From NCBI GenBank assembly GCA_011772205.1, contig WVZY01000020.1, positions 1 to 64,000 of the forward strand: a stretch of DNA of 64,000 bases, in the 5' to 3' direction. Under the pieces are notes generated by a model. That model saw only the letters and a program-made list of their open reading frames with translations. It did no database searches and was not told the DNA's origin. Below are positions 45,341 through 64,000 of this stretch, one piece after another. Origin of the DNA: Candidatus Latescibacterota bacterium (GTDB taxonomy: Bacteria > Krumholzibacteriota > Krumholzibacteriia > WVZY01). The position numbers and the translations under genes are program-made. Each line of letters begins with the position of its first letter. Position 1 is the stretch's first letter.

Positions 45341-47578
45341 TTAGTAAAAGGATTCCGGGTCGATGTCCCACCGTAGTTCCACCGACCGACCGCCTTCTTC
45401 CCGTGCTGTGATTCTCTCGAAGGCCGTCAGCGCTGCCTGCTTGTTTTCGCTCGAAAACCGGCCTTTGATCAGGACCTGCTCCCGATAGCGGTTCTTGACG
45501 CGTGCGATGACCGGAGGGGAGGGACCGAGAATATCGGCTTTTCCTCGAGGAAACACTTCCCTGATGTCTCTTGTCCATTTCGATACTACACGCTTGAGCG
45601 CTCTCTGATTGGCCGAGCTGAGGGAGGCAAGGATAATCCGGCTGAATGGTGGATATTTCAAGAGCTTTCGCACCTTCAGCTCCTCTCTCATGAAACCTGC
45701 ATAATCGTGAGCTTGGAGGAACTTGAACACGTGATGTTCCGGCATAAACGTTTGCACGATTACATTCCCTCCGCGCCCCTCTCGCCCCGCCCGCCCAGAC
45801 ACTTGGGCTAGAATCTGGAATGTTTTCTCGGCCGAGCGAAAGTCGGGGAAGTTCAGGCCCTCTTCGGCATGGAGAACCCCCACCAGACTCACACCAGGAA
45901 AATGATGGCCTTTCGTTACCATTTGTGTGCCGATGAGCACGGGATACCTCCCCGTGCTAAAAGCCTCGAGTATTTTCCGGTGGCCCCGTTTTCCTCCCGT
46001 TGTGTCCGCATCCATTCGGAGGATCCCGACTCCGGGGAATAGGCCTTGTAATTCAAGCTCCACCCGCTGCGTCCCCACCCCGGAGAAAAACAACCGCCTT
46101 TCCCCACAGACCCGGCAACGGGAGGGCGCCGCTTCATCGTAACCGCAAAAATGGCATAACAGCCTGCGGCCGATACGGTGATAGGTAAGGGATATATCGC
46201 AGTTCCTGCAGCGGGCAACCCACCCGCAGGCGCCGCACTGGACGAATCTCGCGTGGCCCCGTTTGTTGAGAAAAATAATGCTCTGCTGTCCTGCGCTGAT
46301 GCTGGCTTCCAACCGTTCGATGAGGACTTTCGAGAAAAAGCCGCTCCTTGCAGGTTCCTCTCTCATATCGATCAAATGGATCCGGGGCATTTCCGTTCCG
46401 CCGACGCGCTCGGGGAGGACGAGATACTCATATCGACCGGAGTCGGCCTGGTGAAGACTCTCGGCCGAAGGTGTTGCTGAACCGAGCAGGACGGTGAGGT
46501 TTTCGTATTTACCCCTCATTAGCGCCACACTTCTTGCGTGGTAGCGGGGTTTATCTTCCTGCTTGTATGAATCATCCTGCTCTTCGTCCACTATGATCAG
46601 CTTCAAATTTTTTACCGGGCTAAAAATCGCGGAGCGTGGCCCCAATACAAGCCGGCACTTCCCGTCCTCGATTTGCTTCCACATCCGAAGACGTTCGGCA
46701 CGGTTTAGACGGCTATGGATGATTGCGATGCCCTTCCCGAACAACCGCCTGTAACGTGTTGTCGCTTGTGGAAGAAGACCGATCTCGGGTACCAGAACGA
46801 TGCAGCCCCCATTTTGGGAGAGCGCGTAGCGTGCGGCGCGGAGATATACTTCGGTTTTCCCACTCCCCGTTACACCGTGCAGAAGAAAGGGTGAAAAACC
46901 ACCAGCCGCTATGGATTTCTCAACCGATTCGAGAGCCTTTTTCTGCGATGCATTCAGCCTTTTTACTTCGCGCTCGATCGATTCCAAAGGCGAAATCACC
47001 TTCTCGGGCTCGAGCAAGACGAAGCCTTTCTCCACCAGATTTTTCAAGACTGTGCGGGGGTACCCCCATTCGCTGACGATCACATCGAGCGGCGCCCCGC
47101 CCCCGGCGATGTTGAGCGCTCTTAACAGAGCGAGCTGCCGGTTCGCTCGCGTGAGCGATCTCTCCGCTTCCTCCAGCGCGCCCCCGGAACGGGTCAGGCG
47201 CGCCACGCCCTCAAAGCGGCTCCTGGCTTTCGACGGTCCCGCTCGGGGCGGGAGTAATGCGTGGGCCGATTCACCGAGCGAGCAGCCGTAATAAGAGGCG
47301 ATCCATTTCGCCAGTTCGACGAGAGACGGATTCAGATAGCCGTCTGCCACGCTTTGGATTGCACGCGTTTTGGGGAAATCACTTTTGTCTGAAACACCAA
47401 GGACGAGACCGCTCAATACTCGTTTGCCAAGAGGGACTTCAACCCGGCTGCCAACGAATACGGAGCCAGCAAACTCTTGCGGCACCTCATAAGTAAAGAG
47501 GGTATCCACTGGAATGGGTAGCGCGACTTTGACGAACGTCGCAGCGCGGGTGGGTGAACGAATGACTCCTGCTTGCAT
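45341..47578 (-). CDS. priA: Primosomal helicase PriA
   Basis: 745 residues. PriA reloads DnaB at stalled forks. The DNA-binding N-terminal domain (about 15-110), Walker A HGVTGSGKTEVYLRA, DEEQ box IIVDEEQDDSYKQ, helicase motifs QMVTKGHHFPGVSLVG and QVSGRAGR, and the paired zinc motifs between the two (CGACGWVARCRNCD and CHFCGY with CRVCG) identify it. The ATG at 47578 has no clear ribosome site, and a promoter -10 box lies only 8 bases upstream, hinting at a near-leaderless transcript. It also lies 83 bases after the receiver gene. Confidence 0.94.
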   Translation of the reverse strand: MQAGVIRSPTRAATFVKVALPIPVDTLFTYEVPQEFAGSVFVGSRVEVPLGKRVLSGLVLGVSDKSDFPKTRAIQSVADGYLNPSLVELAKWIASYYGCSLGESAHALLPPRAGPSKARSRFEGVARLTRSGGALEEAERSLTRANRQLALLRALNIAGGGAPLDVIVSEWGYPRTVLKNLVEKGFVLLEPEKVISPLESIEREVKRLNASQKKALESVEKSIAAGGFSPFLLHGVTGSGKTEVYLRAARYALSQNGGCIVLVPEIGLLPQATTRYRRLFGKGIAIIHSRLNRAERLRMWKQIEDGKCRLVLGPRSAIFSPVKNLKLIIVDEEQDDSYKQEDKPRYHARSVALMRGKYENLTVLLGSATPSAESLHQADSGRYEYLVLPERVGGTEMPRIHLIDMREEPARSGFFSKVLIERLEASISAGQQSIIFLNKRGHARFVQCGACGWVARCRNCDISLTYHRIGRRLLCHFCGYDEAAPSRCRVCGERRLFFSGVGTQRVELELQGLFPGVGILRMDADTTGGKRGHRKILEAFSTGRYPVLIGTQMVTKGHHFPGVSLVGVLHAEEGLNFPDFRSAEKTFQILAQVSGRAGREGRGGNVIVQTFMPEHHVFKFLQAHDYAGFMREELKVRKLLKYPPFSRIILASLSSANQRALKRVVSKWTRDIREVFPRGKADILGPSPPVIARVKNRYREQVLIKGRFSSENKQAALTAFERITAREEGGRSVELRWDIDPESFY

Positions 47579-47661: not shown

Positions 47662-48039
47662 CTACTTTCTGCACCCGAGTATTTCCTGAATCCTCTCTAT
47701 CAGCCGATTCGGGCTGAAAGGCTTCACGACATAATCCACGGCTCCAACTTCGAAACCGAGCCTCTTATCCACGTCCCGGCCTTTCGCTGTTAGAAGGACG
47801 ACCGGAACGCTCTTCGTTTCCGGATCACGCTTGAGCCTTCGGCACGTTTCGTACCCATCGAGGACCGGCATCATGATGTCCAGCACGACGAGATCAGGTT
47901 TCTCCTGCTTTGCTTTTTCGATGGCAAGTTCACCGTTGTTGGCCGTGATCACCTCGAAACCCTCCGCGCTGAGGCTGAACTCTAGGATATGGAGAATGTA
48001 GACCTCGTCGTCCACAACAAGAATTTTCCCCAACGGCAT
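47662..48039 (-). CDS. Single-domain response regulator (CheY-like receiver)
   Basis: 125 residues, one receiver domain only. Acidic pocket Asp10-Asp11, phospho-acceptor Asp54 (VVLDIMMP), Thr in VVLLTAKG and Lys in DYVVKPFSP are all intact. With no output domain it must act by protein contact or as a phosphate shuttle. AGGAGG precedes the ATG. It is the last gene of the signalling island, 48 bases after the larger kinase, and is the obvious phosphorylation partner of one of the three kinases. Confidence 0.93.
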   Translation of the reverse strand: MPLGKILVVDDEVYILHILEFSLSAEGFEVITANNGELAIEKAKQEKPDLVVLDIMMPVLDGYETCRRLKRDPETKSVPVVLLTAKGRDVDKRLGFEVGAVDYVVKPFSPNRLIERIQEILGCRK

Positions 48040-48087
48040 ATTGATTTCCTCCTTGAAGGCACAGGGCCGCGACCCTCTTGCATCACG

Positions 48088-51000
48088 TTATGCGCGTTCC
48101 CCTTCCGGCACTCCTCCCACCACATCATCTCTGCGAGGGAATAGATGCCCGCATTCCTCCAGTTTCTCCAAAAATGCATCCACAATATTCGGATCGAAAA
48201 ACGTTCCCGAGCGGTGCCTGATCACATCCTTAGCCTCATCCAAGGTGTATTTCTTCTGATAGGGACGATTCGATATCAATGCTCTGAGAGAGTCGGCAAC
48301 TCTGAGGATTCTGGCCTCTATGGGAATTGCTTCCCCCGATAATTTGCCCGGATACCCCGTCCCATCGAAATTCTCATGATGGTACAAAATTATATCCCGA
48401 ATATTGCGGGCCATCTCGAATGTTTTGAGCATTTCGGCGCCTTGCACCGTATGCTGTTCGATTGCTTTCCGATCCTTTGCAGACAGTTCAAAAGGCTTTT
48501 TGATGATGTGATAACCGACTTTCGAAAGACCCAGATCATAAACGCTCATAAGGTAGCGGAGAGAGGACTGCTGCTCCTCGCCTAGGCCCAGTTTCTTGGC
48601 GACTTTGCTCACAAGCTCCGTGATCCCCTCCGCATTCTGAACATCGATGTAACGCTTCACATCGAGAATTGCTTTGAAAGTCGCCCTGACCTCGCTGAAA
48701 TCGATCGAGGTTTCGACGAATCTGCCCAGCTTGACCAGGGCCGCACTAAGTCTCTCTGCAAAAAGCTCAAGAAGCTTACAGTCTTCGGCATCGAACCTCG
48801 CCTTGCTGATGTGGTTTGCAACGTTCACCACGCCGACGACTTGCTCCTCTTTCATTATCGGCACGGACAGGAACGAATTCGATTCGTACAGAAAATCATT
48901 GTTCTTTCTCATAAGCCTTGGATCTTTTTCAATATCCTGTACCAGCCAAGACTTTCCCTCCCGCAGTATCCGACCGGCAATTCCTTCGCCCGCTTTCAGT
49001 TTGGCGTGCTCGACAACCTCTTCATCGAGACCAATGGCGGACTCGACCCTCAGTTCTCTCTCAGTATCGTCGAATAGCATGATCGAGACTCGCTTGGCAC
49101 CAACGAGTTCAGCCACCAGCTCCACTAGCAACTCCATATAGCGCTCGACCTCGAACCGGTGAACCATCTCCCCGAGATTCAGTAGCTGAGAACGAACAAC
49201 CACTTCTTTTTTAGGCAGTACTATTATGAACCGGGAACCGCGGTCAGGGTGGTTTTCAACCCAAATCCGCCCATCATGCCAGTCCACAATGTTCTTGCAT
49301 ATCGCCAGGCCCAATCCCGGGCCACCGTACTTTCGCGTTGTCGATCCATCAACTTGATGAAAACGATCGAAGATCATGTCGATCTGTTCTTCGGGGATCC
49401 CGATTCCATCATCCTCTACAATGATTCGGGCGGAAAGCGTTTCGTTCTCGAGCCTTATCCAGACATTTCCTCCGTCGGGCGTGAATTTCGAAGCGTTGTG
49501 CAGGAGGTTGATGATCAGCTGCTTCATGAGTTCTCTTTCTGCGCGAATCGTAACTTCCGAATCCGGCAGCTCTTGATGGAGAGTTATGTTTTTTTGTTTG
49601 AAATTCTTCTCCATCTCCTTGGCGGCAATTGTGATGGTCTCGTTGAGACTGCAAGGAGTTCTTTCGAATTTGATCGCGCCCGATTCCATCTGAGAAAAGT
49701 CGAGAATATCTTCGATGAGTGTCATAAGACGCCCGCTTTCCTCTTCTATCACAACGAGGAATTCTCTGAGAATTTTTCTTTCTACTTGGTCCACGTTCTT
49801 CAATAAGGTCTCACAGTATGCTTTGATCGAAGTCAGCGGCGTCCTGAATTCGTGGGAAACGGTCGCAATGAAGTTGGCCTTCATCTTATTCAGGCCTGAG
49901 ATTTTCGAGGTATATGATTTGAGCTTCTCGTTTTTGCTTTCGAGCTCTCCAAAGAGATTTGCGTTTCTGATCGCTGCCACAGCGAGGGACGCGACGCTTT
50001 CCAGATTTTCGATCACTTCCGCTATGGAGACGTTCGCATTTTCGGGATTTTCCACGGACAAGTAGCCGATCGTTCCAGATCCTTCTTCAGTCAGAGGTAC
50101 TATAAGAAGGTCGATATCTCCCCACGCATTGCCGACCAACATGGACTCGCCCTCCTCTGGGGCTTCGCCCGACTCCCCTTCCCGGCTGAGTGAACTCTGG
50201 CGGAAGAAATAGCTTTTGCTCATACGGAATTTTGCCTCGATCATTTTTTCATACTCCGCCTGAGGCATGCGATAGCTCAGAACGGTCTCCCTTACTTCTT
50301 CATTCAGACCTGCATATGCCCGTGTTTCAAAGCTATGTGTCTTCTCGTTCAAAAGACGGAGAATCACCGTTTTGAATCCGAGGTTCTCCCTGACGAGATC
50401 AACTATCATCTGGAGCAGTTCGCCGAGTTCTTTCCGCTTTTGAATAGTCAGACCGATATGGAGAACCTTCTCTAGATTCTCCACCCGCTTCGCTAGGGAG
50501 AGAGTTTGTTCCTTCTGCCGCTTGATCAACACATTGTTGTCTTCGTAAACATCTGATGCGATTTTACTCAGTTTCGCGAGTTCTTCTTTTGCCCTCGTCA
50601 TTTCCTCCATGCTGGCATCGGACTTGTTCTTATAATAAAGCCCAAGACGCATGTTATGCGAATGCAGCAATGCCAACCCACTAAACAGCAAGAGGAGGTC
50701 TGCGAGCATTGAGATCGTCCTAAACGCTCCCACTCCGGTGTGGAATGCCATCGCGGCAAACATTGCAAGCCATGAAACAGCAAGCCAAGGGATCGAAATA
50801 TAGAGCCCCCGCCTTTGTTCTGGACCAAATCCATGGACGATTTCGAAAATGAACATAACCGGCCTAGCCATTGCAGTGAAAAGCGCCATATTGACGATTC
50901 CGATAGCCGTAAGTGATAGCGCACCTGCTTGGGTCAAGAAAAAGCAGGTAAATCCTCCTGCAACAAAGAGGTACCCCGTCTGTTGGAGAAGAATGGCCTC

Positions 51001-51357
51001 CTCGCTCGCACCCTCCGGATTTTCTGGAGAGGGGTGGTGGTTCTCGTGCGCGGGGGTGTACTGCACCAGCAGCTTGGTCAAACCGAAAGCAGCGAAAATG
51101 AGACTCATCAGGTTTAGCGCCGCCCAGAGTGTTTCAGGAAACAAGCGCCCACCGTCGATCGCACTCATGAAAGCGAAAGCAAGGCCCCTCGCTAACAAGA
51201 AAGTCAGGACGGCAAGAAATATCAGCTCGTAAACTCTGTGTTGGACGACCTTTCTTCCCTTTATGAGATCATACAACACGAGGAGGGACAGAATCACAGC
51301 GAGGAACATATAAGCGGCGCCCCATTCGAGTGAGATGATTCTATTCGCAACTTCCAT
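48088..51357 (-). CDS. Membrane histidine kinase fused to GAF and degenerate HD-GYP (YD) domains
   Basis: 1089 residues. The N-terminus has about seven membrane helices (roughly 12-235), then a coiled coil (250-300), GAF 1 (about 300-470), HisKA with His502 (TVSHEFRTPLTS), HATPase (N box INLLHNASKFTPDGG; DGIGIP; GPGLGLAICKNI), GAF 2 (about 735-880) and an HD-GYP-like domain (about 900-1065). In the last domain the catalytic HD pair reads Tyr940-Asp941 (SVYDLG), although His969, His993-His994 and GYP (1001-1003) remain. Loss of the first histidine suggests weak or no c-di-GMP hydrolysis, perhaps a binding role. AAGGGG precedes the ATG. It follows its HD-intact paralogue by 30 bases. Confidence 0.92.
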   Translation of the reverse strand: MEVANRIISLEWGAAYMFLAVILSLLVLYDLIKGRKVVQHRVYELIFLAVLTFLLARGLAFAFMSAIDGGRLFPETLWAALNLMSLIFAAFGLTKLLVQYTPAHENHHPSPENPEGASEEAILLQQTGYLFVAGGFTCFFLTQAGALSLTAIGIVNMALFTAMARPVMFIFEIVHGFGPEQRRGLYISIPWLAVSWLAMFAAMAFHTGVGAFRTISMLADLLLLFSGLALLHSHNMRLGLYYKNKSDASMEEMTRAKEELAKLSKIASDVYEDNNVLIKRQKEQTLSLAKRVENLEKVLHIGLTIQKRKELGELLQMIVDLVRENLGFKTVILRLLNEKTHSFETRAYAGLNEEVRETVLSYRMPQAEYEKMIEAKFRMSKSYFFRQSSLSREGESGEAPEEGESMLVGNAWGDIDLLIVPLTEEGSGTIGYLSVENPENANVSIAEVIENLESVASLAVAAIRNANLFGELESKNEKLKSYTSKISGLNKMKANFIATVSHEFRTPLTSIKAYCETLLKNVDQVERKILREFLVVIEEESGRLMTLIEDILDFSQMESGAIKFERTPCSLNETITIAAKEMEKNFKQKNITLHQELPDSEVTIRAERELMKQLIINLLHNASKFTPDGGNVWIRLENETLSARIIVEDDGIGIPEEQIDMIFDRFHQVDGSTTRKYGGPGLGLAICKNIVDWHDGRIWVENHPDRGSRFIIVLPKKEVVVRSQLLNLGEMVHRFEVERYMELLVELVAELVGAKRVSIMLFDDTERELRVESAIGLDEEVVEHAKLKAGEGIAGRILREGKSWLVQDIEKDPRLMRKNNDFLYESNSFLSVPIMKEEQVVGVVNVANHISKARFDAEDCKLLELFAERLSAALVKLGRFVETSIDFSEVRATFKAILDVKRYIDVQNAEGITELVSKVAKKLGLGEEQQSSLRYLMSVYDLGLSKVGYHIIKKPFELSAKDRKAIEQHTVQGAEMLKTFEMARNIRDIILYHHENFDGTGYPGKLSGEAIPIEARILRVADSLRALISNRPYQKKYTLDEAKDVIRHRSGTFFDPNIVDAFLEKLEECGHLFPRRDDVVGGVPEGERA

Positions 51358-51387
51358 CGCGATCCCCTTATGGATTGCTCAACGAGC

Positions 51388-54387
51388 TCAATTTGAAATG
51401 CTTTCCCTGAGCATTTCGCGGAACTCCTGGGCTTGATGGGCAGTGAGCTTTCCCTCTTCTCTCAAAACCTGGAGAAATGCATCCACGACTTCGGGATCAA
51501 ACTGCTTATTTGCATTGTCCACGAGCTCCTTCAGAGCAGCCCCCATCGGCATTCTCTTACGATATACACGATCAACCGTCATGGATTGATATGCGTCTAT
51601 TACGGCGAGAATCCTGGCTCCTGTGGGTATCTCGTCCCCTTTTAGCCCCATGGGGTAACCCAGGCCATCCATTCGCTCGTGGTGATAGAGGATTATGTTG
51701 CTGACCAGCTCGACGAACTCGAGCGGTTTGATGAGTTCTTTCCCTGTACTCGGGTGTCGTTGAATTTGCTCGATTTCGTCATTCGTAAGGTTCAACGTTT
51801 TGTTTAGAATTTCATCGCTGACCTTCGTCATGCCTATGTCATGAACGCTCGCTACATATTGAATAACTCTGACCTCTTTATCACTGAGGCCGAGCTTTCT
51901 GGATACGCGGACGGCGAGATCGACGATCGTCTCGATCACGCCGGTCTTCATTTGTGCGTTCAGCATCTTTCTGAAGGCTTGCACGGTATCTTTGAGGAGA
52001 GCAGTAGAATCATCAACCGTACGGACTCTCTCCAGCGCTTTGGATATTCTCTCTCCGAAAGATATCAAGAGATTCATATCATCCCTCGTGAACGGCATTC
52101 CCGAGGTCTTATTGTTCACATTTATTACCCCCACAACCACTTCGCCGATGAAAAGCGGAACGCTTATAAGCGATGTAGTTTCATACTGAGGATTATTGGG
52201 GCATGCGTAGATCTCGTTTTCTTCTATGTTATCTATAAAAATCGGAACTCCACTCTTCGCCACCTTGCCGGAGATACCCTCCCCGATCTTCATCCGAGTC
52301 TGCTCGACGATCCACTCATCGAGCCCGTAGGAAACTTTGATAAAGAGCTCCGACCTGTTCTTGTCAAGGAGCATCAAAGAGACGGTTTTTGCAGATAAGA
52401 GCTCCGCGATCATCCTGATGATCAATTCGAGCATCAGGTGAAGTTCATCCCTTGCATTTACCACTTCGGCTATATAACCGAGGAGATCGTTGTAGCAGTG
52501 CTCTTTAGGAATGGTAATTATAAAATTGCTGCCTACGTTCTCCTCGCTTTCTACCGTGATCGTACCGCCATGTTGTTCGACGATATTCTTGACGATCGCC
52601 AACCCCAGCCCAACTCCTTCGTAACTCATGGTCTCATCGGACCGGACACGGAAGTATTTATCGAATATTCTCCCTATCTCCTCGCGTGGAATACCGATGC
52701 CCTCATCACTGACGGACGCGCTTATATCAACCGCACCTTCTTCAGCAGTAATTTTTATTTTCTTCCCTTTCTCGGAGTATTTCACTGCGTTGTTGATAAG
52801 ATTGATGAAAACCTCCTTCATAAGATCCTCGTCGGCATCGATATTAGGTAGATTCGGCGGAATATCTTTAACCACTTGGAGGTCCTTTTCATCAAGAGCC
52901 GGTTTCATCGTTGCGATTGCTTCAAGAACCAGATCATCTAGACTGACGTTTTTCCTGTCGAGGGATCTCTGGCCGAACTCGATTTTGGTAACATCGAGAA
53001 TTCCATTTACGATTCGAATGAGCCTTTCAGTCTCTTTGGAAATGATTTCAAGGAACTGCTTGCTCTGTGGAAAATTCGGATCGTTACTATAGTTGCACAG
53101 CGTTTCAACGTACGCTTTGATCGACGTTAAAGGTGTTCTCAATTCGTGCGAAACATGCAGTACGAAATCCGACTTCAGCGAGTTTGCTTTCTCCAAGCGA
53201 GCAACATCTTCTTCCAATGAGTTGATTTTTCTTTCGAGTGACTCGTATAACCGACTTTTTTCAATGGCTATAGAGAGCTGATTACTGAGGATCATTATCA
53301 GTCTCAAATGCTGATCCTCAAATCTCTTCGGCAAAAAGTCACCTGCAAGCATCAATCCAAAAACCTGATTGCCGGCGGTGAGGGGGCATCCAATGAATGA
53401 ACGCATCCCACTCTGGACAAAAGCATCGCTCCCGCCGGATACACGCTCTAGCTTGACATCCTCGACTACCACTGGGGAATTGCGACTGCGAATCCACTCA
53501 GAAAGGCCGCTACGCTCTAGATGATCGTTTAGCTTCGGATTATAACTCTGGCGCAGGCCCACAAAAATCGAGTTTGTAATTTCCTGCTTGCCGTTGAAGA
53601 GGATTATTCCGGCCCATGGTTGAGACAGAAGTATTGTCGCTTCTTTCGCAACGATCTTGAGAAGGGTATCGAGCGTTATCACGGAGTTGATACCCAGGCT
53701 GATATCATAGAGACGCGTTAACTCGAGGATCTTGTCTTCGGATTCCTTGTCCTTTTTTCGGAGTCTCTCTACGGTAAGTTGAAGCCGATTTTGAAAAACT
53801 GAGGAGAGAAAGAGAACGAAACCCATGAATGCGCATAGGACCAGGAGCGAACCGACATAATAATGGCCGCTCTCGAAAGCACTGCCTTGCGGAGAATAGC
53901 AGCTATGGTGTGGGATGATTCCGCGAAATTCGAGGAAACCCAATACAGCGACTAAGACAATCGCAGTGCAAAAATAATACAAGATATTCTGTTTCGAGGA
54001 GAATATGTAGCTTGCAAAGAATAGGGGGACTGCAAGAAGAATAAGAAACGGACTTTCAAGCGTGCCGGTGAGGTATATCAGCGAAGCTACTACGATCAAA
54101 TCGAGATAGCTTGAGTACCAGTGCACTGCGGTATCAACTTTTCTGCGCGCCCAAGAGCGTTTCGACCCAATCCACTCCCAAAGCCCTTTACCGTAATACT
54201 GGAAAACAGCAGCGCCAACGAATATAAAAAGTAGAGCATCAGAGTTGTAGTCGAAGCTTGCGAAGTATTTCGAGATGACCACGATGAGAAAGAAGGAAAA
54301 GAGCTCCACGAGGCGAAGGGAAATCACATTGACAGAGTCTCTTCTCCCAAAGGGTATGCTCGCGAATCTTCTAATGTCTGAATCCAT
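51388..54387 (-). CDS. Membrane histidine kinase fused to GAF and HD-GYP phosphodiesterase-like domains
   Basis: About 999 residues from ATG 54387 (a TTG two codons upstream is open). About six membrane helices (30-200) precede a coiled coil, GAF 1 (about 225-385), HisKA with His414 (HVSHELRTPLTS), HATPase (FINLINNAVKYSEKG; EGIGIP; GVGLGLAIVKNI), GAF 2 (about 640-790) and HD-GYP (about 815-985). The HD pair is intact (SVHDIG, about 849-850), with His-His (YHHERMDG) and GYP (910-912), so c-di-GMP hydrolysis is plausible. The lysine usually following HDIG is Met. A kinase and a c-di-GMP hydrolase in one chain is an unusual layout. Only 9 bases separate it from the upstream soluble kinase, so the genes are probably translationally coupled. 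Confidence 0.92.
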   Translation of the reverse strand: MDSDIRRFASIPFGRRDSVNVISLRLVELFSFFLIVVISKYFASFDYNSDALLFIFVGAAVFQYYGKGLWEWIGSKRSWARRKVDTAVHWYSSYLDLIVVASLIYLTGTLESPFLILLAVPLFFASYIFSSKQNILYYFCTAIVLVAVLGFLEFRGIIPHHSCYSPQGSAFESGHYYVGSLLVLCAFMGFVLFLSSVFQNRLQLTVERLRKKDKESEDKILELTRLYDISLGINSVITLDTLLKIVAKEATILLSQPWAGIILFNGKQEITNSIFVGLRQSYNPKLNDHLERSGLSEWIRSRNSPVVVEDVKLERVSGGSDAFVQSGMRSFIGCPLTAGNQVFGLMLAGDFLPKRFEDQHLRLIMILSNQLSIAIEKSRLYESLERKINSLEEDVARLEKANSLKSDFVLHVSHELRTPLTSIKAYVETLCNYSNDPNFPQSKQFLEIISKETERLIRIVNGILDVTKIEFGQRSLDRKNVSLDDLVLEAIATMKPALDEKDLQVVKDIPPNLPNIDADEDLMKEVFINLINNAVKYSEKGKKIKITAEEGAVDISASVSDEGIGIPREEIGRIFDKYFRVRSDETMSYEGVGLGLAIVKNIVEQHGGTITVESEENVGSNFIITIPKEHCYNDLLGYIAEVVNARDELHLMLELIIRMIAELLSAKTVSLMLLDKNRSELFIKVSYGLDEWIVEQTRMKIGEGISGKVAKSGVPIFIDNIEENEIYACPNNPQYETTSLISVPLFIGEVVVGVINVNNKTSGMPFTRDDMNLLISFGERISKALERVRTVDDSTALLKDTVQAFRKMLNAQMKTGVIETIVDLAVRVSRKLGLSDKEVRVIQYVASVHDIGMTKVSDEILNKTLNLTNDEIEQIQRHPSTGKELIKPLEFVELVSNIILYHHERMDGLGYPMGLKGDEIPTGARILAVIDAYQSMTVDRVYRKRMPMGAALKELVDNANKQFDPEVVDAFLQVLREEGKLTAHQAQEFREMLRESISN

Positions 54388-54396
54388 AATCAATAA

Positions 54397-55218
54397 TCAA
54401 GAGTCGGATTTTTGTTTCTGAAGCGTTGGCACCGTAATATAGACGGTTGTTCCTTGATTTGTTTTGCTTTTGATCGATACATCGCCTCCGTAAAGCTCTA
54501 TGAGGCTGCGAACAAGTGTGAGGCCTAGTCCCGACCCGCTTACCTTTTCACTTGGGACCCTGACGAACGGGTTGAAAATCTTCTGGAGGTACTCCTCCGG
54601 TATTCCCACACCTGTGTCGACAATCTGTATTTTGAAAATCTCTCGGGGTGTCGTCCCGCGCTTGTCCGGCGATCGCTTGACCGATACCTTAACCTCGGAG
54701 TTCTGTGGAGAGTAGATGAGGGCGTTCTCGACAACATTGACGAGGATCAGCTTGAGGGCATTCGGATTGAATTCAATATGCTTGGCGTTATCCGAAACGG
54801 ATACCTTCACACGGCTCCGAGCGTGAAGCTTGACCGGGAAGTCGTCAACGACGCCGTCAACAAAACCTTGAATGTCGATTTTCCTGATATTTAAGTCCTC
54901 GTCCTCGTTGTCGATCCTGAGAAGTTCCAGAAAAAACTCGTTCAGTTCGTTGAGCAGCTCGCAATCTCCTCTGGCTTTCTTGATGTTTTCCACCGCGTCG
55001 CATCCCGCCCACATCTCCAGATCTTCCAGAGCGAGATCCAGATAACCGCTGATTGCTGTCGTGGGGCGCTTGAGTTCATGCCCCATGATGAGACGGGTTG
55101 CAAGGAGGGTGCGCTTGTACTTCTCGAGTCTCTGCCTCAAGCTGTCCGCTTCAGCTCTCGCTTCACCCAACAAACTCAACAGAACATCCGTTTTGGTGTT
55201 TTCAACATCAATCGTCAT
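54397..55218 (-). CDS. Soluble histidine kinase
   Basis: 273 residues from ATG 55218, which has GGAG 9 bases upstream. There is no membrane or sensory domain: a short coiled coil leads directly to a HisKA-like segment with His47 in IMGHELKRPTTAISGYL, then a HATPase domain with VENALIYSPQNS (N box), DTGVGIP and GSGLGLTLVRSL. Such stripped kinases often take their signal from partner proteins or act on a neighbouring receiver. It is 15-36 bases after the receiver-GGDEF gene, its likely substrate. Confidence 0.92.
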   Translation of the reverse strand: MTIDVENTKTDVLLSLLGEARAEADSLRQRLEKYKRTLLATRLIMGHELKRPTTAISGYLDLALEDLEMWAGCDAVENIKKARGDCELLNELNEFFLELLRIDNEDEDLNIRKIDIQGFVDGVVDDFPVKLHARSRVKVSVSDNAKHIEFNPNALKLILVNVVENALIYSPQNSEVKVSVKRSPDKRGTTPREIFKIQIVDTGVGIPEEYLQKIFNPFVRVPSEKVSGSGLGLTLVRSLIELYGGDVSIKSKTNQGTTVYITVPTLQKQKSDS

Positions 55219-55254
55219 AATTTCACGCTCCAGAAACAAGGATCCTGAGCCGGA

Positions 55255-56235
55255 TCAACGGCCCTTCCCTTTTTTTGCCGGACTGATTTCATCCTGCCTT
55301 CGTTCCTTCACAACCACACTGCCTTTTATTTTCTTCCCGTAGTTCTTCACTTCTTTTGCAATGTCGCTTATCTCAGCGAAGTGCTTGATTTTGTAATCGG
55401 TACTGATAACGAGCGCAATAGTGACTGCCATAAGTGGAACACGGTGAACATCTCCCTGCCTGCTCGTCACCTCGAGATATCCGCGCTCGACGTCGTCTTC
55501 GCTGAGAACAAACAGAGCGTTCTTATCGAACTCCTCGATGATGTGCTGGGCGATGAACTCCGCCCGAGCGGGAGCTGTCACCAAAACAAAGTCATCTCCG
55601 CCGATATGGCCGATAAAATCATCTTTTGTCCCGAGTTTTTCGACCGTCCTCGACAGGACGCCGGCGAGAAATTCTATGATTTCATCGCCCTTTTGGTAGC
55701 CGTAGAAGTCGTTAAAGCCCTTGAAGTTATCGATGTCTATGTACAGAAACGCAAATGGCTTCCCCTGATCGATGCGGCTTTTCAGCTCGCGCTCGATCGC
55801 CGTGTTTCCAGGAAGCCCTGTGAGGGGGTTGGCCTCTTTTTGTCGTATGTTCCACTCGAGGACGTTTCTCACGCGCAAGAGAAGTTCCTCATTCGAATAC
55901 GGTTTTATCAGGTAGTCGTTGGCCCCGCCTTCGAGACCCTTGACCTTTTCGTTGAGATCGCCCCGGGCGGTAAGCATAATGATCGGGATTTGATTCATCT
56001 TAAAATCTTCTCGCATTTTGCGACAAACTTCGAAGCCATCCATCTTTGGCATCATTACATCGAGAATCACGAGGTGAGGTTTCACCTCCCCAATAAGCTC
56101 CAACGCTTCCACACCGTCTTGAGCAGTGATGACCTGGTACCCAGCCTTTTCCAGAGTAAACTTCAATATTTGAAGAATATGCGGTTCATCATCGACGGCC
56201 AGAATTCGGTACGCCGCCTGATCGGGTGTGAGCAT
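55255..56235 (-). CDS. Receiver-GGDEF response regulator (diguanylate cyclase, PleD/WspR type)
   Basis: 326 residues. A receiver domain (1-125) has Asp15-Asp16, phospho-acceptor Asp59 (VILDVMMP) and Lys111. The GGDEF domain (about 130-310) has the metal site YIDIDNFKGFND and the active-site motif as GGDDF (212-216). The usual upstream RxxD inhibitory site reads TKDD (203-206), so feedback inhibition by c-di-GMP is probably absent. Phosphorylation should switch on c-di-GMP synthesis. It is first in the signalling operon, with GGAGGAG before the ATG and a sigma-54-type promoter about 45 bases upstream. The C-terminal 20 residues are basic. Confidence 0.93.
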   Translation of the reverse strand: MLTPDQAAYRILAVDDEPHILQILKFTLEKAGYQVITAQDGVEALELIGEVKPHLVILDVMMPKMDGFEVCRKMREDFKMNQIPIIMLTARGDLNEKVKGLEGGANDYLIKPYSNEELLLRVRNVLEWNIRQKEANPLTGLPGNTAIERELKSRIDQGKPFAFLYIDIDNFKGFNDFYGYQKGDEIIEFLAGVLSRTVEKLGTKDDFIGHIGGDDFVLVTAPARAEFIAQHIIEEFDKNALFVLSEDDVERGYLEVTSRQGDVHRVPLMAVTIALVISTDYKIKHFAEISDIAKEVKNYGKKIKGSVVVKERRQDEISPAKKGKGR

Positions 56236-56279: not shown

Positions 56280-56294
56280 GCAATAAATATGCCA
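56280..56294 (-). promoter_or_regulatory. Candidate sigma-54 (-24/-12) promoter of the signalling island
   Basis: On the minus strand TGGCATATTTATTGC (56294-56280) keeps the invariant GG and GC pairs with exactly 10 bases between them, plus TTGC at -12. The predicted start is near 56268, giving a leader of about 33 bases that contains the GGAGGAG ribosome site of the receiver-GGDEF gene. No competing sigma-70 promoter was seen in the 200-base gap. RpoN dependence is inferred from the match only; no NtrC-type activator is encoded in the window. Confidence 0.6.
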
Positions 56295-56435: not shown

Positions 56436-57443
56436 TCAGGCCCAAGATGTCACCGGCCCACGGGCGAATACATCGAGGTCAAGGCCGTCATTTCGTCCAC
56501 AGGAGAGCTGTTTTGCCGCGGCACAGGCCACCATCGCCGCGTTATCCGTGCAGTACTGGATGAGCGGTGCGTGATAGGTCATTCCCTCTTTCTCGCAGTG
56601 AGTCTTGAGGCATTTTCGCAGGGAACCGTTTGCGGCAACACCGCCTGCAAGGTATGCGTGTGCAATCTTATGCTTCTTCGCGCACGCAATCGTCTTTTGA
56701 ACGAGCACATCGACGATCGCTTCTTGTGCGGATGCGGCGATGTCGGCGATCGTTTGCTGATCGAGTGAATTGCGGCTCTCGATATAGAGCCTCACAGCTG
56801 TTTTGAGCCCCGAGAAGCTGAAATCGAATTCGTTCTTACCCAGCATAGCCCTCGGGAAATGAACCGCATCCTTATTGCCCGGTTTGGCCGCTTCTTCGAC
56901 AGCTGGACCTCCAGGGAAACCGAGGCCGAGAAGCTTGGCGATTTTGTCAAACGCCTCTCCAGCCGCATCGTCACGTGTCGTTCCGAGGAGTGTGTAGCGT
57001 CCTGCGCAATCCACCCTGTACAGACACGTATGTCCCCCGGAGACAACGAGAACGAGACATGGATACCGAAGCTCTTCCAGCTGGAGCTCATTTGCCAGGA
57101 TATGCGCTTCGATATGGTGCACGCCGACAATCGGGATTTGCAGAGCCATAGCCAGCGCTTTGGCGAAGCCCACGCCGACTAGAAGAGAACCGAGAAGCCC
57201 GGGACCGTTGCTAACGCCGATGCCGTCGATCGCGTGTTCATCCACTTTATCCCGCGCGAGCAACTCGGCAAAAACAGGAAGAAGCGTTTTTAGATGTTGT
57301 CGCGAGGCGATTTCCGGGACGACACCTCCATACTTCTCATGGACGAGCTGGTTCGCCGTGAGGACTTCGATTACACCTCTCTCCGGGGAGAACAGCGCAA
57401 GCGACGTGTCGTCGCAAGAAGTTTCGATTCCAAGCACGATCAT
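56436..57443 (-). CDS. tsaD: tRNA threonylcarbamoyladenosine transferase TsaD
   Basis: 335 residues, normal length. With TsaB and TsaE it adds the threonylcarbamoyl group to A37 of ANN-reading tRNAs. The N-terminal LGIETSCDDTSLAL, the metal motif HHIEAH (HIEAHILANEL), VSGGHT and the C-terminal GGVAANGSLR are diagnostic of the Kae1/Qri7/TsaD family. It lies 78 bases downstream of glnB and 200 bases upstream of the signalling island. Confidence 0.97.
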   Translation of the reverse strand: MIVLGIETSCDDTSLALFSPERGVIEVLTANQLVHEKYGGVVPEIASRQHLKTLLPVFAELLARDKVDEHAIDGIGVSNGPGLLGSLLVGVGFAKALAMALQIPIVGVHHIEAHILANELQLEELRYPCLVLVVSGGHTCLYRVDCAGRYTLLGTTRDDAAGEAFDKIAKLLGLGFPGGPAVEEAAKPGNKDAVHFPRAMLGKNEFDFSFSGLKTAVRLYIESRNSLDQQTIADIAASAQEAIVDVLVQKTIACAKKHKIAHAYLAGGVAANGSLRKCLKTHCEKEGMTYHAPLIQYCTDNAAMVACAAAKQLSCGRNDGLDLDVFARGPVTSWA

Positions 57444-57521: not shown

Positions 57522-58193
<672 letters not shown>

Positions 58194-61100
58194 ATGCAAA
58201 AACCGCCAAAAGCAATCGAATCGCTCATCGAGTCCATTATCGAAGAAACGACAGGACTCGATATCACTGCGCAACTCGGTGCGCTGGGATACCCGAAGTC
58301 ACCCAGACTTGCCGATGTTCTCCAAAAGCTGACCAAGACATTCTGCACCGACCGGGCTTCAATCGAGCTTTTCTCCTCCATCGTCATCGACTTCCTGAAC
58401 GCACCGCACCCTGAAGGCGCGTTGATAAACCTCTCGAGGTATGCGGATATTGTCGGCGCGCCGAATGTCCTGCTAATCACTCTTGCGCAGGCAGGCCCGC
58501 TCCGCGAGATCCTCGCCACAACGTTCGGTTCCAGCCAATACATGGCAGATATCGTCATCCGAAATCCAGGTTATCTCTACTGGCTGATCGAAAAACAAAC
58601 GTGGGATCAGGAGGAGAGCCTGACCTTTTTCGAAACGGAACTGGAACGCGAGATCGCATACTTTCGAACAAAAAAAGGAAAACTGAACGCCGTACGAAGA
58701 TACCACCGTATGGCACTTCTCCGCATAGGCGTCCAGGACCTTCTCGGTCAGCAATCGATCGAAAGCACGTCGGAACGCCTGAGCCATCTCGCCGATGCGA
58801 TCGTCAATACGGTACTCGAGATTCTGTGGCGGGATCTGATCCAGCATCCATTGGAACAACAAACCGATTCAGGACAGGCCCGGCGCCGGAGAAAATTATC
58901 GAACGATTCTGACTCAAAAGTGCTTCCGAGGCCAAACACCGGCTTTTCTGTGCTCGCCCTGGGCAAACTGGGCGGAAGGGAGTTGAACTACAGTTCCGAC
59001 ATCGATCTCATCTACCTTTGCGCAGACGCGGACGATGATGTGCTCGCCTTCTACCGGACACTGTCGCAATCGCTCACAGGAGCGCTCACTGAAGTGACTG
59101 AAGAAGGATATCTCTACCGTATAGATCTGCGTCTCCGGCCGGATGGTAGCTCCGGCCCGCTGGTGAACTCAATGACATCCATGCGGATCTACTATGAGAA
59201 CCGCGGAAAGCCCTGGGAGTTTCAGGCGATGCTCAAAGCACGCGTCATCGCAGGCGACCGCCAGCTGGGAGAGACGTTCTTGGAAAACATCTCCGGCCTG
59301 ATCTACAATCCCTCGCTGCCCTATTCGCCGGTCGAGGACATTGCCCGCATGCGCGTGCGGATCCAGGAAAACATTCCAGCGCGCGAAAGACCTTTCAACA
59401 TCAAGCTGATGGAAGGAGGGATCCGGGATATCGAGTTCATCGTTCAGACCCTCCAGCTCCTCCACGGTGCCGGGCACCCGGAACTCCGCGCACCGGGAAC
59501 GCTCGATGCGCTCGACCGCGCCGCCAAGCAGAGACTCTTGAAGAAAAAGGAAGCAAAGACACTCGCCGATGCCTACCGGTTTTTGAGGCTAGTCGAGCAC
59601 CGTCTCCAGATGATGCACCAGATCAAAACGCACACCGTCCCGGAATCTCCACAAGAAGTAGCGCTTCTTGCCGCCAGGGTGTCGAATGGGCCTCTGGGAT
59701 CTTACGCATACGCCGAATTCATAGACGCGCTCACGAAACATTTGAAGAACGTCCGCATATTGAGCGAGAGCTTCTTCGCCGAGGGAAGCCAGGATGCCTC
59801 ATCGCTGCTCCTCCTCCCCGAAACGGACGCGGAAGCGCTGCAAATGCTCGAGAGCTGTGGTATTGCAGATCCAGAGAGAGCCATCAAAGTCATCCATACG
59901 ATGGCTTATGGGTCGTTCCCCCGGCTGCTGGACCGAAATACTCGGGCCGCATTTGCCGACTTGCTCCCGCACTTACTGGACGTTGTTTCAACCACAGGCG
60001 ATCCCGGGCTGACGCTCACAAACGTCTCCAGAATTGCAGCAGCGGGGAGGAGCGAATACGCACTTTACAAATTCCTCAGGGAATCCGATGGGGCCCGTGC
60101 GCTGGTGGTGGCGCTCGCCGGTGTCTCATCCCGTCTGACGGACTATCTATGCAGCCGCATCGAAACCCTCGATGCGCTTCTCGTGGACCCGGAGGATTTG
60201 ATCCGGGCCTCTCTTGACCATCAGCCGGTTTGGGAAGGGTTCAAACGTCTGGACAAAAAATCGATGACAGACAAGGACATCGTTATCGGCTCGCTGCAAA
60301 AAGAGTTGAGACAAGCTCTAGACAGACTTCATCTCGCTTCGTTCCTCGTGGACTTCGAAGCACGCTCGTTTCCCGACAGGCTCGCGGCATCCCGTGCGTC
60401 TTTCGCCAAGCGTTCGATCGCCGATGCGTTCGATAGCGCTTTTGAAGAGGAAACGCAGGCGGCGCTTTTCGCCATGGGCTCCTTTGGCGTTGGGGAACCG
60501 CGATATGGAAGCGATGCCGACCTTCTAGTCGTCTCAAATGTAGAAGACACCGAAGCTATTACGCGAAACGTCCAGACGATCAACCGAGTTTTTACGGAAG
60601 GCAGGATCTTCAAATTGGATTTCAGGCTCCGCGGAGAAGGAGCCAACGCACCGCTCGTGCAGGATTTGCAGTTCTACGATAATTATTTCAAAAATCGCAT
60701 GTCGCTGTGGGAGCGGATCGCCTTTTCGAAGTGCGCCCTCTGGTGGGGCGACCAGAAGATCGCCCATTCATTTCTAGGTGTACTCGAGGGGGAGCTGACA
60801 ACGCCATTTGCCAAGAACGAAATCGAACCGCTCCTCCTCATGAGGAGAAAACTCGACGTGCTGGGCCAAAAAACCGGCCTTACTTGGGAAACAAAACGCT
60901 CCCCCGGTGGACGCTATGACATCGAATACCTGTGTGGGATTGGAATAGCCAAAATAGCAGCCGCCGCAAGATTTCCCTTTACGGCATTCACGGGCGAGCG
61001 TCTCGATATGTTGAAAGAAGCAGGAATGCTCGACAAGGACGAGTCCACCGTCTGCAAAGAGGCACTTGAGTTTTACTCGAAGCTCGAGTACATTCTCGAG

Positions 61101-61277
61101 CTGCAGGGATTTGCGATCCCGCAATCCGATGAGCGTGAGCGTTATCTCGAGAGTTATGTCGAGAGAACCTTCGACTACCTGGGTTTTCCGTTGCGAGTCG
61201 GTATTAGAGATGAAATCAGAAGTGTCAAGCGGGCAGTTCGCAGCATTTTCGAACGATTTATTGAAAAGGTTGCATGA
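58194..61277 (+). CDS. glnE: Bifunctional glutamine synthetase adenylyltransferase/deadenylase
   Basis: 1027 residues. GlnE adds and removes AMP from glutamine synthetase, directed by PII and glutamine. Two nucleotidyltransferase domains are visible: LGKLGGRELNYSSDIDLIYL near 258-277 and GSFGVGEPRYGSDADLLVV near 761-779, each with the GS-x-DxD metal motif and linked by a helical region. The length is close to the enterobacterial protein. The ATG at 58194 has only a weak GAAG upstream. It is divergent from glnB and convergent with glnD, with 47 bases between the stops. Confidence 0.95.
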   Translation: MQKPPKAIESLIESIIEETTGLDITAQLGALGYPKSPRLADVLQKLTKTFCTDRASIELFSSIVIDFLNAPHPEGALINLSRYADIVGAPNVLLITLAQAGPLREILATTFGSSQYMADIVIRNPGYLYWLIEKQTWDQEESLTFFETELEREIAYFRTKKGKLNAVRRYHRMALLRIGVQDLLGQQSIESTSERLSHLADAIVNTVLEILWRDLIQHPLEQQTDSGQARRRRKLSNDSDSKVLPRPNTGFSVLALGKLGGRELNYSSDIDLIYLCADADDDVLAFYRTLSQSLTGALTEVTEEGYLYRIDLRLRPDGSSGPLVNSMTSMRIYYENRGKPWEFQAMLKARVIAGDRQLGETFLENISGLIYNPSLPYSPVEDIARMRVRIQENIPARERPFNIKLMEGGIRDIEFIVQTLQLLHGAGHPELRAPGTLDALDRAAKQRLLKKKEAKTLADAYRFLRLVEHRLQMMHQIKTHTVPESPQEVALLAARVSNGPLGSYAYAEFIDALTKHLKNVRILSESFFAEGSQDASSLLLLPETDAEALQMLESCGIADPERAIKVIHTMAYGSFPRLLDRNTRAAFADLLPHLLDVVSTTGDPGLTLTNVSRIAAAGRSEYALYKFLRESDGARALVVALAGVSSRLTDYLCSRIETLDALLVDPEDLIRASLDHQPVWEGFKRLDKKSMTDKDIVIGSLQKELRQALDRLHLASFLVDFEARSFPDRLAASRASFAKRSIADAFDSAFEEETQAALFAMGSFGVGEPRYGSDADLLVVSNVEDTEAITRNVQTINRVFTEGRIFKLDFRLRGEGANAPLVQDLQFYDNYFKNRMSLWERIAFSKCALWWGDQKIAHSFLGVLEGELTTPFAKNEIEPLLLMRRKLDVLGQKTGLTWETKRSPGGRYDIEYLCGIGIAKIAAAARFPFTAFTGERLDMLKEAGMLDKDESTVCKEALEFYSKLEYILELQGFAIPQSDERERYLESYVERTFDYLGFPLRVGIRDEIRSVKRAVRSIFERFIEKVA

Positions 61278-61324
61278 ACGCTCGTTTTTATGTAGAGAAG
61301 GGAGACGTTGATCTCAGTGGTATT

Positions 61325-63979
61325 CTAGGCAATCTCCTTTTCCAGCCGCGTCCGAATCCTCCTCAACTTCGAAGCGCGCGTCACTTTCCCACCGTCTCTG
61401 CCGTGCACGTAAAAAGCATCGATTGCCCGGTTCGCCTCGGTCGAAATCCTCGCGCGGTATATCACGAGCCCCTCGCTCGAAAGCGCGTACGTAATTTTGA
61501 AAAGCAGCCCCGGCGCGTCCGGTGCGAATATATCGATGATCGTGAAATCACCGGATAAATCGTTCTCGATCTCGACTTTGAGGGGAACAGGGATGGATGC
61601 GTCGCGCCTGCGCTTCCACTTTTCCACGTGAGCATTCACCCGATAGCGGATGTCCCCCGGCCCACGGAGAACGGACAGGAGATCTTCCCTGACACTTTCA
61701 ACCCGCTCCTCGCCAAGGGATGCTCCCTCTATCAGATCCTCGACATGGAAGACATCGATAACCTTGCCATCCTTCCTGGTGAATGCATGAGCATGGAGTA
61801 TGTTGAGATCGTTCATCGTGAGCACGCCGCAGAGCTGCGACAGTCGGAAGGGTTTGTCAGGCGTACAGAATGTAATTTCTGTCGAATGCCTCCTCTTTTT
61901 CGCGACAACCACTGCTTTTTCTTCCTCCAGGCGATCGACCAGCCTGAGATGCGCCTTCACCTGCGATGGACGCATCGTGAGAAGGTAGCGTCCCGGGAGC
62001 AAATCGAGATGCTCGAGGGCCTTCTCTCTTTGTGCGCCGGGGGGAAACGTCTTGAGGATATCTCGCTTTCTTGCCTTGTAGAATGCCTCGGGGCGCTTTT
62101 CTTTTTTCGCCATGTACTGATGGGCTTTCAGGTACAGCGCCCAGACCAGGTTTCGTTTCCATTCGGTCCAAACAACGGGGGACGTCGCCTTGAGGTCCGC
62201 GTACGTGAGGAGGCAGAGATACTTGAGGTTTGTCCTGTTTTTTACCTTGGAGCAGAACGCTTCGAGCGTCCCAATATCGGTTGGGTCTCGTCTCTGGCTG
62301 AAGTGTGACATCAGAAGATGGTGCTCGATCAGATAACATACCGCATCGATCTGCTCCGGTTTGAGGAATATCCTCGTGAGTATCTTTCGCGCGATAACCG
62401 CCCCTTTCCTCGCATGCCCCCGTCCCTCGATTTTTCCCACATCGTGGAGCAGCGCGGCCAGAAACAGCACCTGTTTGTCGGGGATCTCGAAGTAGAGGCG
62501 GCCAAAAGGGGTCAACCTCGCCCCGGAAGTTCGGATGAGGAGCTCGAGATTTCGCACGACCTTGAAACTGTGCTCGTCCACTGTGTAGTGATGGTAAAGA
62601 TCGTACCGCTTGAGACACGAAAGGAAGTTGTATTCTGGAATCACCTGTCCCAGGAACCCCGTTTCATGCATTGCGTGAAGGATCAGCGAGTTGTTTTTTC
62701 CGTTCCGGAACAGCTCAGCAAATCTCTTGCGCATTCGTGCAATTTCTCTGCGCCCTGTGAGGTCCGACTCCAGTACAGCTGCCAGGCGGCGTTTGACCGC
62801 CCTGTCCAATTTGAGTCCAACCTGTTTTTGATGGTTGAAAACATACAAGGGATCAGACCGGAGTTTTCTCCTGTCGATTCTGACATTGAGTTTGTTGCCA
62901 TCGCGTACAACCTTTTTTCTGCCCAACAAAATATCGCTTGCAGATCCGAATTGCAGGTCTTCGAGGATGTCTTCCGTAATTCGGAAAATTGTGCGCGTGT
63001 TCGTATAGTAATCCTTCATGAAGAGCTCAACACCGAGGTGGTCGCCCCTGCTGCCGTATCCAAGCTGCTCCGCGATTGTTTTTTGCATTCGCACGGTGAG
63101 CTGATCCTGCTTGGATCGCGTGGCTGTGTGAAGCACTACGCGTACTTTGAGAAGAAAGTCGTAGGCTTGATTCAGCGCTTTCTCTTCTCCAGGTAGAAGT
63201 AGCCCTTTGTTTCTCAGAGCAGAAAAACCCGCGTTCCTCTTTGCCACCATTCCGAGCCAGCCGAGTGTTTGATAATCACGGAGACCGCCCGGGCTCAATT
63301 TTACGTTGGGTTCGACGAGCTGGTAGCTGTTGTCGTACTTCCTGTGGCGCGTGCGTGCGTCCTTGACTTTTCTGATGAGGAACTCCTCGCGGTCCTTTCG
63401 CCGGATCCGTGAAATCTGTTTACAAATCTCCCGTGCGATCCGCTGCGAACCGCAGATCCACCGGCTCTCAAGGAGCGCCGTCTTCGTGTCGGGGTGGCGG
63501 GCGAGAACGCTTTCGCTCTCAACGAGGGATTCAACGGAGTGGCCCAGCTCAAAGCCCACATCCCACATCAGCTGGATGAAAATCGTCGCTACCCGCTTGA
63601 CCTGACGGGTCTTTCGTTTGCAAAGAAACAAGATGTCCACATCGGAGTAGGGGGCGAGTTCTTCGCGCCCGTACCCACCCAACGCAAGAACGGCGATCTC
63701 AGCTTTCTCGGCCGGGAGATGGTTCTCCTCGAGCGCTCGAAAGAACACCATCCCTACGACGGCATCCACGATCTTGCTGTACGAATTGACGAATCTTCTC
63801 CCAGTGAAATCGCTGGGCTTGTCCAGGCCGAGGAGCTCCTCCTGTAGATGGGACAGGTAATCCCGGCACATTTCGAGAAACACGTTTCTTGGGATCGATG
63901 CGCCGCCTGTAATGAGGGCAGGAAGAGAAAACGCATCCTCCTCGTCGACGCCGGCGGGCTTTTGCGGTTGAACGCTCAT
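61325..63979 (-). CDS. glnD: PII uridylyltransferase/uridylyl-removing enzyme GlnD
   Basis: About 884 residues from ATG 63979; a TTG four codons earlier is open and the frame continues to the window edge, so the true start could lie beyond it. GlnD senses glutamine and adds or removes UMP from PII Tyr51. The nucleotidyltransferase motif LGGYGREELAPYSDVDILFL (about 103-122), the HD hydrolase motif ALLHDVGKIEGRGHARKG (about 497-514) and two C-terminal ACT domains (about 685-880, the last ending near RRIRTRLEKEIA) are present. It probably modifies the glnB product encoded 3.5 kb away. Confidence 0.94.
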   Translation of the reverse strand: MSVQPQKPAGVDEEDAFSLPALITGGASIPRNVFLEMCRDYLSHLQEELLGLDKPSDFTGRRFVNSYSKIVDAVVGMVFFRALEENHLPAEKAEIAVLALGGYGREELAPYSDVDILFLCKRKTRQVKRVATIFIQLMWDVGFELGHSVESLVESESVLARHPDTKTALLESRWICGSQRIAREICKQISRIRRKDREEFLIRKVKDARTRHRKYDNSYQLVEPNVKLSPGGLRDYQTLGWLGMVAKRNAGFSALRNKGLLLPGEEKALNQAYDFLLKVRVVLHTATRSKQDQLTVRMQKTIAEQLGYGSRGDHLGVELFMKDYYTNTRTIFRITEDILEDLQFGSASDILLGRKKVVRDGNKLNVRIDRRKLRSDPLYVFNHQKQVGLKLDRAVKRRLAAVLESDLTGRREIARMRKRFAELFRNGKNNSLILHAMHETGFLGQVIPEYNFLSCLKRYDLYHHYTVDEHSFKVVRNLELLIRTSGARLTPFGRLYFEIPDKQVLFLAALLHDVGKIEGRGHARKGAVIARKILTRIFLKPEQIDAVCYLIEHHLLMSHFSQRRDPTDIGTLEAFCSKVKNRTNLKYLCLLTYADLKATSPVVWTEWKRNLVWALYLKAHQYMAKKEKRPEAFYKARKRDILKTFPPGAQREKALEHLDLLPGRYLLTMRPSQVKAHLRLVDRLEEEKAVVVAKKRRHSTEITFCTPDKPFRLSQLCGVLTMNDLNILHAHAFTRKDGKVIDVFHVEDLIEGASLGEERVESVREDLLSVLRGPGDIRYRVNAHVEKWKRRRDASIPVPLKVEIENDLSGDFTIIDIFAPDAPGLLFKITYALSSEGLVIYRARISTEANRAIDAFYVHGRDGGKVTRASKLRRIRTRLEKEIA

Positions 63980-64000
63980 GGGGCTGGACAAAACATCTCT

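Follow-up and report, generated by a model that had tools for sequence, protein, structure and literature searches.

We analysed a window of 64,000 nucleotides, i.e. the whole stretch at positions 1 to 64,000 of contig WVZY01000020.1 (GCA_011772205.1) from Candidatus Latescibacterota bacterium, a member of the Krumholzibacteriota, in which five genes on the minus strand combine a phosphorelay with domains of cyclic di-GMP (c-di-GMP) signalling. Gene A (55255..56235, 326 amino acids, Pfam Response_reg and GGDEF) encodes a REC-GGDEF response regulator. It is followed by gene B (54397..55239, 280 amino acids, TTG start) for a soluble HisKA-HATPase histidine kinase, in which Pfam detects HATPase_c and, below threshold, HisKA. 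Genes C (51388..54393, 1001 amino acids, TTG start; Pfam GAF, HisKA, HATPase_c, GAF and HD_5) and D (48088..51357, 1089 amino acids; Pfam HisKA, HATPase_c, GAF and HD_5) both encode membrane/GAF kinases continuing into GAF and HD-GYP domains, and gene E (47662..48039, 125 amino acids; Pfam Response_reg) a single-domain receiver resembling DivK and CheY. The gaps A-B, B-C, C-D and D-E measure 15, 3, 30 and 48 bases. The original prediction of five closely spaced reading frames in this order holds for coordinates and, by Pfam, for domains; it did not mention the N-terminal hydrophobic/sensor regions present in both fusions. Among the matches listed, none of the proteins A to E reached an NCBIfam equivalog cut-off.

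Homologues were sought in 80 genomes of the Krumholzibacteriota, the window's phylum, and in 47 genomes from the phylum of an 'Eisenbacteria' genome (Eisenbacteria in the following), and neighbourhoods were read at about 80 loci. Gene A is present in 76 of the 80 Krumholzibacteriota genomes, including 46/46 high-quality ones, and in 44 of the 47 Eisenbacteria genomes; a GAF-HD-GYP fusion of the D or C type occurs in 68/80 and 30/47 genomes, respectively. Relatives with 55-57% identity to C are of the same family and order, and those bearing names (CP070677.1, CSMAG_1114 and SW_4_19) indicate Krumholzibacteriota. Wherever both flanks lie on the contig, A stands beside tsaD (56436..57443, minus strand, in the window) and a lone receiver beside priA (45341..47578, minus strand), at 32/32 Krumholzibacteriota and 16/16 Eisenbacteria loci, E always being the final gene before priA. 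The recurrence of the same gene set at the same chromosomal place in two phyla is far beyond chance. The closely packed genes are thus kept as a conserved unit, which supports the original prediction on this point, and its refuting condition, homologues that never co-occur, does not apply, since they are found almost always together.

The interval from A to E holds zero, one or two HisKA-HATPase-(GAF)-HD-GYP kinases depending on the locus, the variants being B-C-D, C-REC-D, a single fusion, two fusions without B, and no kinase. In other families of the phylum B is absent or swapped for a lone receiver. Because the kinases vary or are missing while A and E are constant, A and E form the invariant core and the fusions are usual but non-obligatory partners. 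At several Eisenbacteria loci (L261-L264, L266, L267) the tsaD-priA interval consists of A and a lone receiver only, so that the kinases there must be encoded elsewhere. In one family (f8; L039, L044, L091) B lacks the phosphoacceptor histidine, SNEF or GSEF replacing GHEL, which suggests a DivL-like pseudokinase. In a quick likelihood tree of 119 fusions, calculated without bootstrap, a single branch (98% support) separates C from D, and each group contains both phyla; the C/D duplication is therefore older than the phylum split. The five-gene set is an ancient, vertically inherited core operon. A local, horizontally acquired island was rejected in view of the same chromosomal place and the largely vertical tree in both phyla.

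We detected a sigma-54 (-24/-12) promoter, TGGCATATTTATTGC, at 56280..56294 on the minus strand, 44 bases from the ATG of A, a feature absent from the original prediction. It is the sole exact match in the window to the strict pattern TGGCAYRN4TTGC, in which GG and GC are 10 bases apart. The strict pattern occurs upstream of A at 35/41 Krumholzibacteriota and 8/27 Eisenbacteria loci. At the Krumholzibacteriota loci it was not found upstream of priA (40 regions), tsaD (35), rho (19), C (39), D (42) or E (27), and the entire 1.52 Mb of strand searched there yielded 36 matches; two Eisenbacteria rho upstream regions do carry it. As the exact promoter is conserved upstream of A and nearly absent elsewhere, the operon very likely depends on sigma-54 RNA polymerase for its transcription, presumably as a single transcript. 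A scan for sigma-70 promoters gave fewer matches than in shuffled sequences and was uninformative. Beyond one end of the operon lie tsaD, PII, glnE and glnD, beyond the other priA, a TPR protein gene, rho and prfA; nitrogen-control genes (PII or glnB, glnE and glnD, 57522-63991) hence adjoin the putatively sigma-54-controlled operon beyond tsaD. We regard this as coincidence and not as a functional link to PII/GlnD/GlnE, because it is tsaD and priA that are conserved as flanks, PII being only sometimes beside tsaD.

The cyclase motif of A, originally given as GGDEF, is in fact GGDDF. All REC-GGDEF rows in the alignment from Krumholzibacteriota carry this motif (two other rows are mis-collected lone receivers), as do, by regular expression, 26 of 30 Eisenbacteria copies. 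While A misses the GG(D/E)EF signature, it does have a REC domain with essentially invariant phospho-Asp, T and K and the full GGDEF fold: an AlphaFold model (mean predicted local distance difference test, pLDDT, 84) has WspR, PleD and DgcR as best structural matches. A thereby resembles WspR/DgcR-type regulators in domain order and predicted fold, but differs by GGDDF in place of GGDEF or GGEEF and by the inhibition site (I-site) RxxD, none of which was found in A by alignment and motif check. A PleD orthologue was rejected, since A scores 169.3 bits against NCBIfam PRK09581 (cut-off 474) and has a single receiver, not two. Ser or Thr at position 348 separates the Hypr cyclases, which produce cGAMP (PMC6456294). 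The position matching Hypr Ser348, which by our own motif reading would be the Asp of the GD motif, is Asp in 41/41 Krumholzibacteriota copies, and this identity for A was excluded.

One may ask whether the module has left c-di-GMP altogether, with GGDDF dead or serving for GTP binding or protein contact and the output being a phosphorelay through E alone. The GGDDF protein PA3258 is cited as inactive in PMC8835794, the Pfam match in A leaves the last third of the GGDEF profile uncovered, and the I-site is missing. We nevertheless consider this improbable: the DxD, ND, GD and GGDDF motifs are essentially invariant over two phyla, the GGDDF enzyme GSU1937 is active (PMC8835794), and the model of A spans the whole REC-GGDEF fold. 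The genome also encodes 3 canonical GGDEF/GGEEF and 5 canonical HD-GYP proteins, so that c-di-GMP signalling in the organism is not in doubt.

The HD-GYP domains of C and D were compared with PmGH (PMC4159591), whose numbering is used here, with HMMER alignments to 4MCW as anchor. The sample comprised 121 module copies and, as controls, 76 non-kinase HD-GYPs caught by the same DNA pattern. The H-site ligand H189 is histidine in 1/121 module copies versus 62/76 controls. The second-shell residue K225 is lysine in 0/121 module copies, being M or L nearly throughout (M in 57/57 C copies), and is kept in 61/76 controls. D308 is replaced in nearly all module copies, by E in the Eisenbacteria. D222, H250, H276, H277, D305, G284, Y285 and P286 vary hardly or not at all. 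Among the C copies, 43/43 from Krumholzibacteriota and 13/14 from Eisenbacteria have the HD dyad (H221, D222); D has YD (H221->Y) in 43/44 Krumholzibacteriota copies and HD in most Eisenbacteria. In the window, C keeps the dyad, as originally noted, but departs from the HD-GYP consensus by H189->V, K225->M and D308->Q, which had been overlooked. The YD noted before in D is real and is accompanied by H189->N, K225->L and D308->R, with D222, H250, H276, H277, D305 and GYP kept. Five of the six other HD-GYPs in the window's own genome keep both H189 and K225, and the canonical ones there have the complete residue set. On contig C14 of this genome, a degenerate HD-GYP (RDIGM, without H189; L007, 131462-131944) lies about 1.1 kb from a canonical one on the same strand (L002, 133037-133534), a further pairing of a degenerate with an intact copy. 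Judged from the alignments, the module domains have undergone a coherent loss of the H-site while retaining the remainder of the tri-metal centre.

Replacing H189, H221 or K225 of PmGH by alanine kills its activity, and the proposed nucleophile is a hydroxide bridging the M and H metals (PMC4159591). V. cholerae HD-GYP proteins without HD are inactive (PMC4212101). Since D carries YD, its HD-GYP is very probably inactive as a phosphodiesterase. For C, inactivity is probable rather than certain, because RpfG, without E185 and H189, is still an active phosphodiesterase (PMC4159591) and so is VCA0681 without D308 (PMC4212101). The original prediction held that the operon can both make and remove c-di-GMP, and one version of it would make C, at least, a kinase-gated binuclear phosphodiesterase and D a degenerate regulatory copy. 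The dyad in all Krumholzibacteriota copies of C, the retained H250, HH, D305 and GYP and the example of RpfG are compatible with this. It is, however, hard to reconcile with M at K225 throughout C, with the loss of D308, and with the missing ligand of the very metal that would share the nucleophilic hydroxide with the M-site, all the more as the non-kinase HD-GYPs mostly keep K225 and H189. We therefore regard it as unlikely; H189 and K225 counts and the YD of D weaken the claim of removal, and a receptor or docking function fits better.

The contacts to the nucleotide are mostly conserved, as would suit a receptor. Y285 is kept in 116 of the 121 copies, R314 is R in 97 and K in 5, position 316 is mostly aromatic, and R/K317 is found in 114/121. 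For the GAF-HD-GYP part of D, the top structural match of the AlphaFold model (mean pLDDT 86) is 4MCW, followed by c-di-GMP-bound DvhD (9RBZ); the inter-domain arrangement of this model is unreliable, with a high root-mean-square deviation over the full length. DvhD also belongs to the closest solved relatives of the C and D domains by sequence and fold. This Desulfovibrio vulgaris protein, described in 2026, is a non-catalytic HD-GYP and a demonstrated c-di-GMP receptor (PMC13090378). Like C and D, it is a membrane protein with the HD-GYP behind a sensory domain and a helical stalk and with metal ligands lost. It has lost the HD and HH ligands and signals to a periplasmic protease; the domains of C and D lack just the H-site and have a histidine kinase as partner. 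PmGH has been seen with c-di-GMP bound and the G-site iron alone present (PMC4159591), and the kinases CckA and ShkA are under allosteric c-di-GMP control (PMC7010744).

A second precedent is the RpfC/RpfG and WspR-RpfG pathway, where HD-GYP, phosphorelay and a GGDEF response regulator likewise meet, the HD-GYP being on the response regulator in RpfG and on the kinase here. The RpfG HD-GYP binds the GGDEF domain of the REC-GGDEF protein WspR and inhibits it without the need for phosphodiesterase activity, and phosphorylation of WspR weakens the binding (PMC9758175). The Xanthomonas HD-GYP:GGDEF contact uses the GYP motif and the DxD motif of GGDEF (PMC3749722). By this example, the HD-GYP of C and D might be a docking platform and not bind c-di-GMP: the GYP face would hold unphosphorylated A inactive and hand it to the kinase, with phosphorylation releasing it. 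The almost invariant GYP, the DxD invariant in seven aligned A proteins and the usual co-occurrence of the genes would suit such a role. Pure docking would have no need of the nearly invariant buried ligands H250, H276, H277 and D305, and some Eisenbacteria keep A without an HD-GYP partner at the locus, so we judge it rather unlikely, albeit slightly less so than a phosphodiesterase C. With DvhD (PMC13090378) and RpfG-WspR (PMC9758175) as precedents, our preferred reading of the HD-GYP of C and D is a sensor that detects c-di-GMP or the cyclase; in both cases the kinase would receive feedback.

The H, N, G1 and G2 boxes of kinases C and D and the phosphoacceptors of A and E are conserved in the alignments, and a relay from several kinases onto A and E is therefore well founded, the pairing being what we infer. 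The circuit probably makes c-di-GMP on orders of two sensor kinases. The membrane-anchored C and D and the small kinase B would exchange phosphoryl groups with A and E, phosphorylated A would dimerise and synthesise c-di-GMP, and E may act as shuttle, sink or allosteric cofactor, like DivK for PleC/DivJ. The HD-GYP domains of C and D would not hydrolyse c-di-GMP efficiently but bind it, as the pocket side with metal, GYP and R314 is kept and the H-site lost. The helical stalk could relay their occupancy to GAF and kinase and thus exert product feedback, whose sign we can only infer, on the kinase/phosphatase balance. To this whole explanation, a sigma-54-dependent phosphorelay setting c-di-GMP production with the HD-GYP binding c-di-GMP as feedback, we assign a probability of about 0.5.

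Several points weigh against it. DvhD has HD changed to SQ and HH to MN and holds no metal at its receptor site, and R314 is lost (G) in 18/44 D copies. Given the active RpfG and VCA0681, C could still hydrolyse c-di-GMP, and the inactive PA3258 bears on the cyclase. Moreover, some Eisenbacteria keep A and E without a kinase between them; kinase feedback is therefore not a universal part.

The module would work like the PleC/DivJ-DivK-PleD circuit of Caulobacter crescentus (with DivL and CckA), without being a member of that family. Both combine a pair of kinases with a single-domain receiver and a receiver-cyclase; PleD has two receivers, A only one. The Caulobacter genes are scattered and do not form one operon. 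There, too, c-di-GMP feeds back on the kinases of the network (PMC7010744), but it acts on other kinase parts (the ShkA pseudo-receiver) and not on an HD-GYP as proposed here. A bistable switch has been modelled for that network, and bistable switching by the present module may be envisaged purely by analogy with PleC/DivK/PleD (PMC3772055).

Outside this group the kinase-GAF-HD-GYP architecture is rare (2/198 Nitrospirota genomes at E<=1e-60), in line with the original view of it as unusual. Fusions with the YD-L signature of D occur in metagenome-assembled genomes of Desulfuromonadales (L095/L216) and Nitrospirota (L096/L217) and at L277; no further operon gene was seen beside the L095/L216 and L096/L217 fusions. 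Ten genomes of other phyla (Zixibacteria, Gemmatimonadota, Poribacteria, Aminicenantes, Planctomycetes, Armatimonadota and others) contained no strong homologue of A. A spread of the module to other phyla was hence discarded, only sporadic YD-type fusions in Desulfuromonadales and Nitrospirota being found. Searches of the open-access literature that combined c-di-GMP signalling with the taxa concerned or with fusions of kinases revealed no description of the module. The parts are known; the kinase-borne HD-GYP without H-site, its fixed operon and its conservation over two phyla under a sigma-54 promoter were not found described there.

We tentatively put forward, with slightly less confidence than the circuit itself, that two uncultured phyla share an undescribed core signalling module whose histidine kinases sense c-di-GMP through a C-terminal HD-GYP, selectively deprived of one among three metal sites, and feed back on the cyclase of the same sigma-54 operon. 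If true, HD-GYP would join the short list of histidine-kinase inputs for c-di-GMP (CckA, ShkA, SgmT, RavS) as a new class, within a PleD-like switch of independent make. The degenerate HD-GYP is a natural experiment, one metal site being lost in step and the others preserved, in a kinase beside its own cyclase, and it cautions against annotating such kinase-borne HD-GYP proteins as phosphodiesterases. One chromosomal place kept over two whole phyla suggests a core role of the module in cell biology, for instance in life on surfaces, in the cell cycle or in controlling the envelope.

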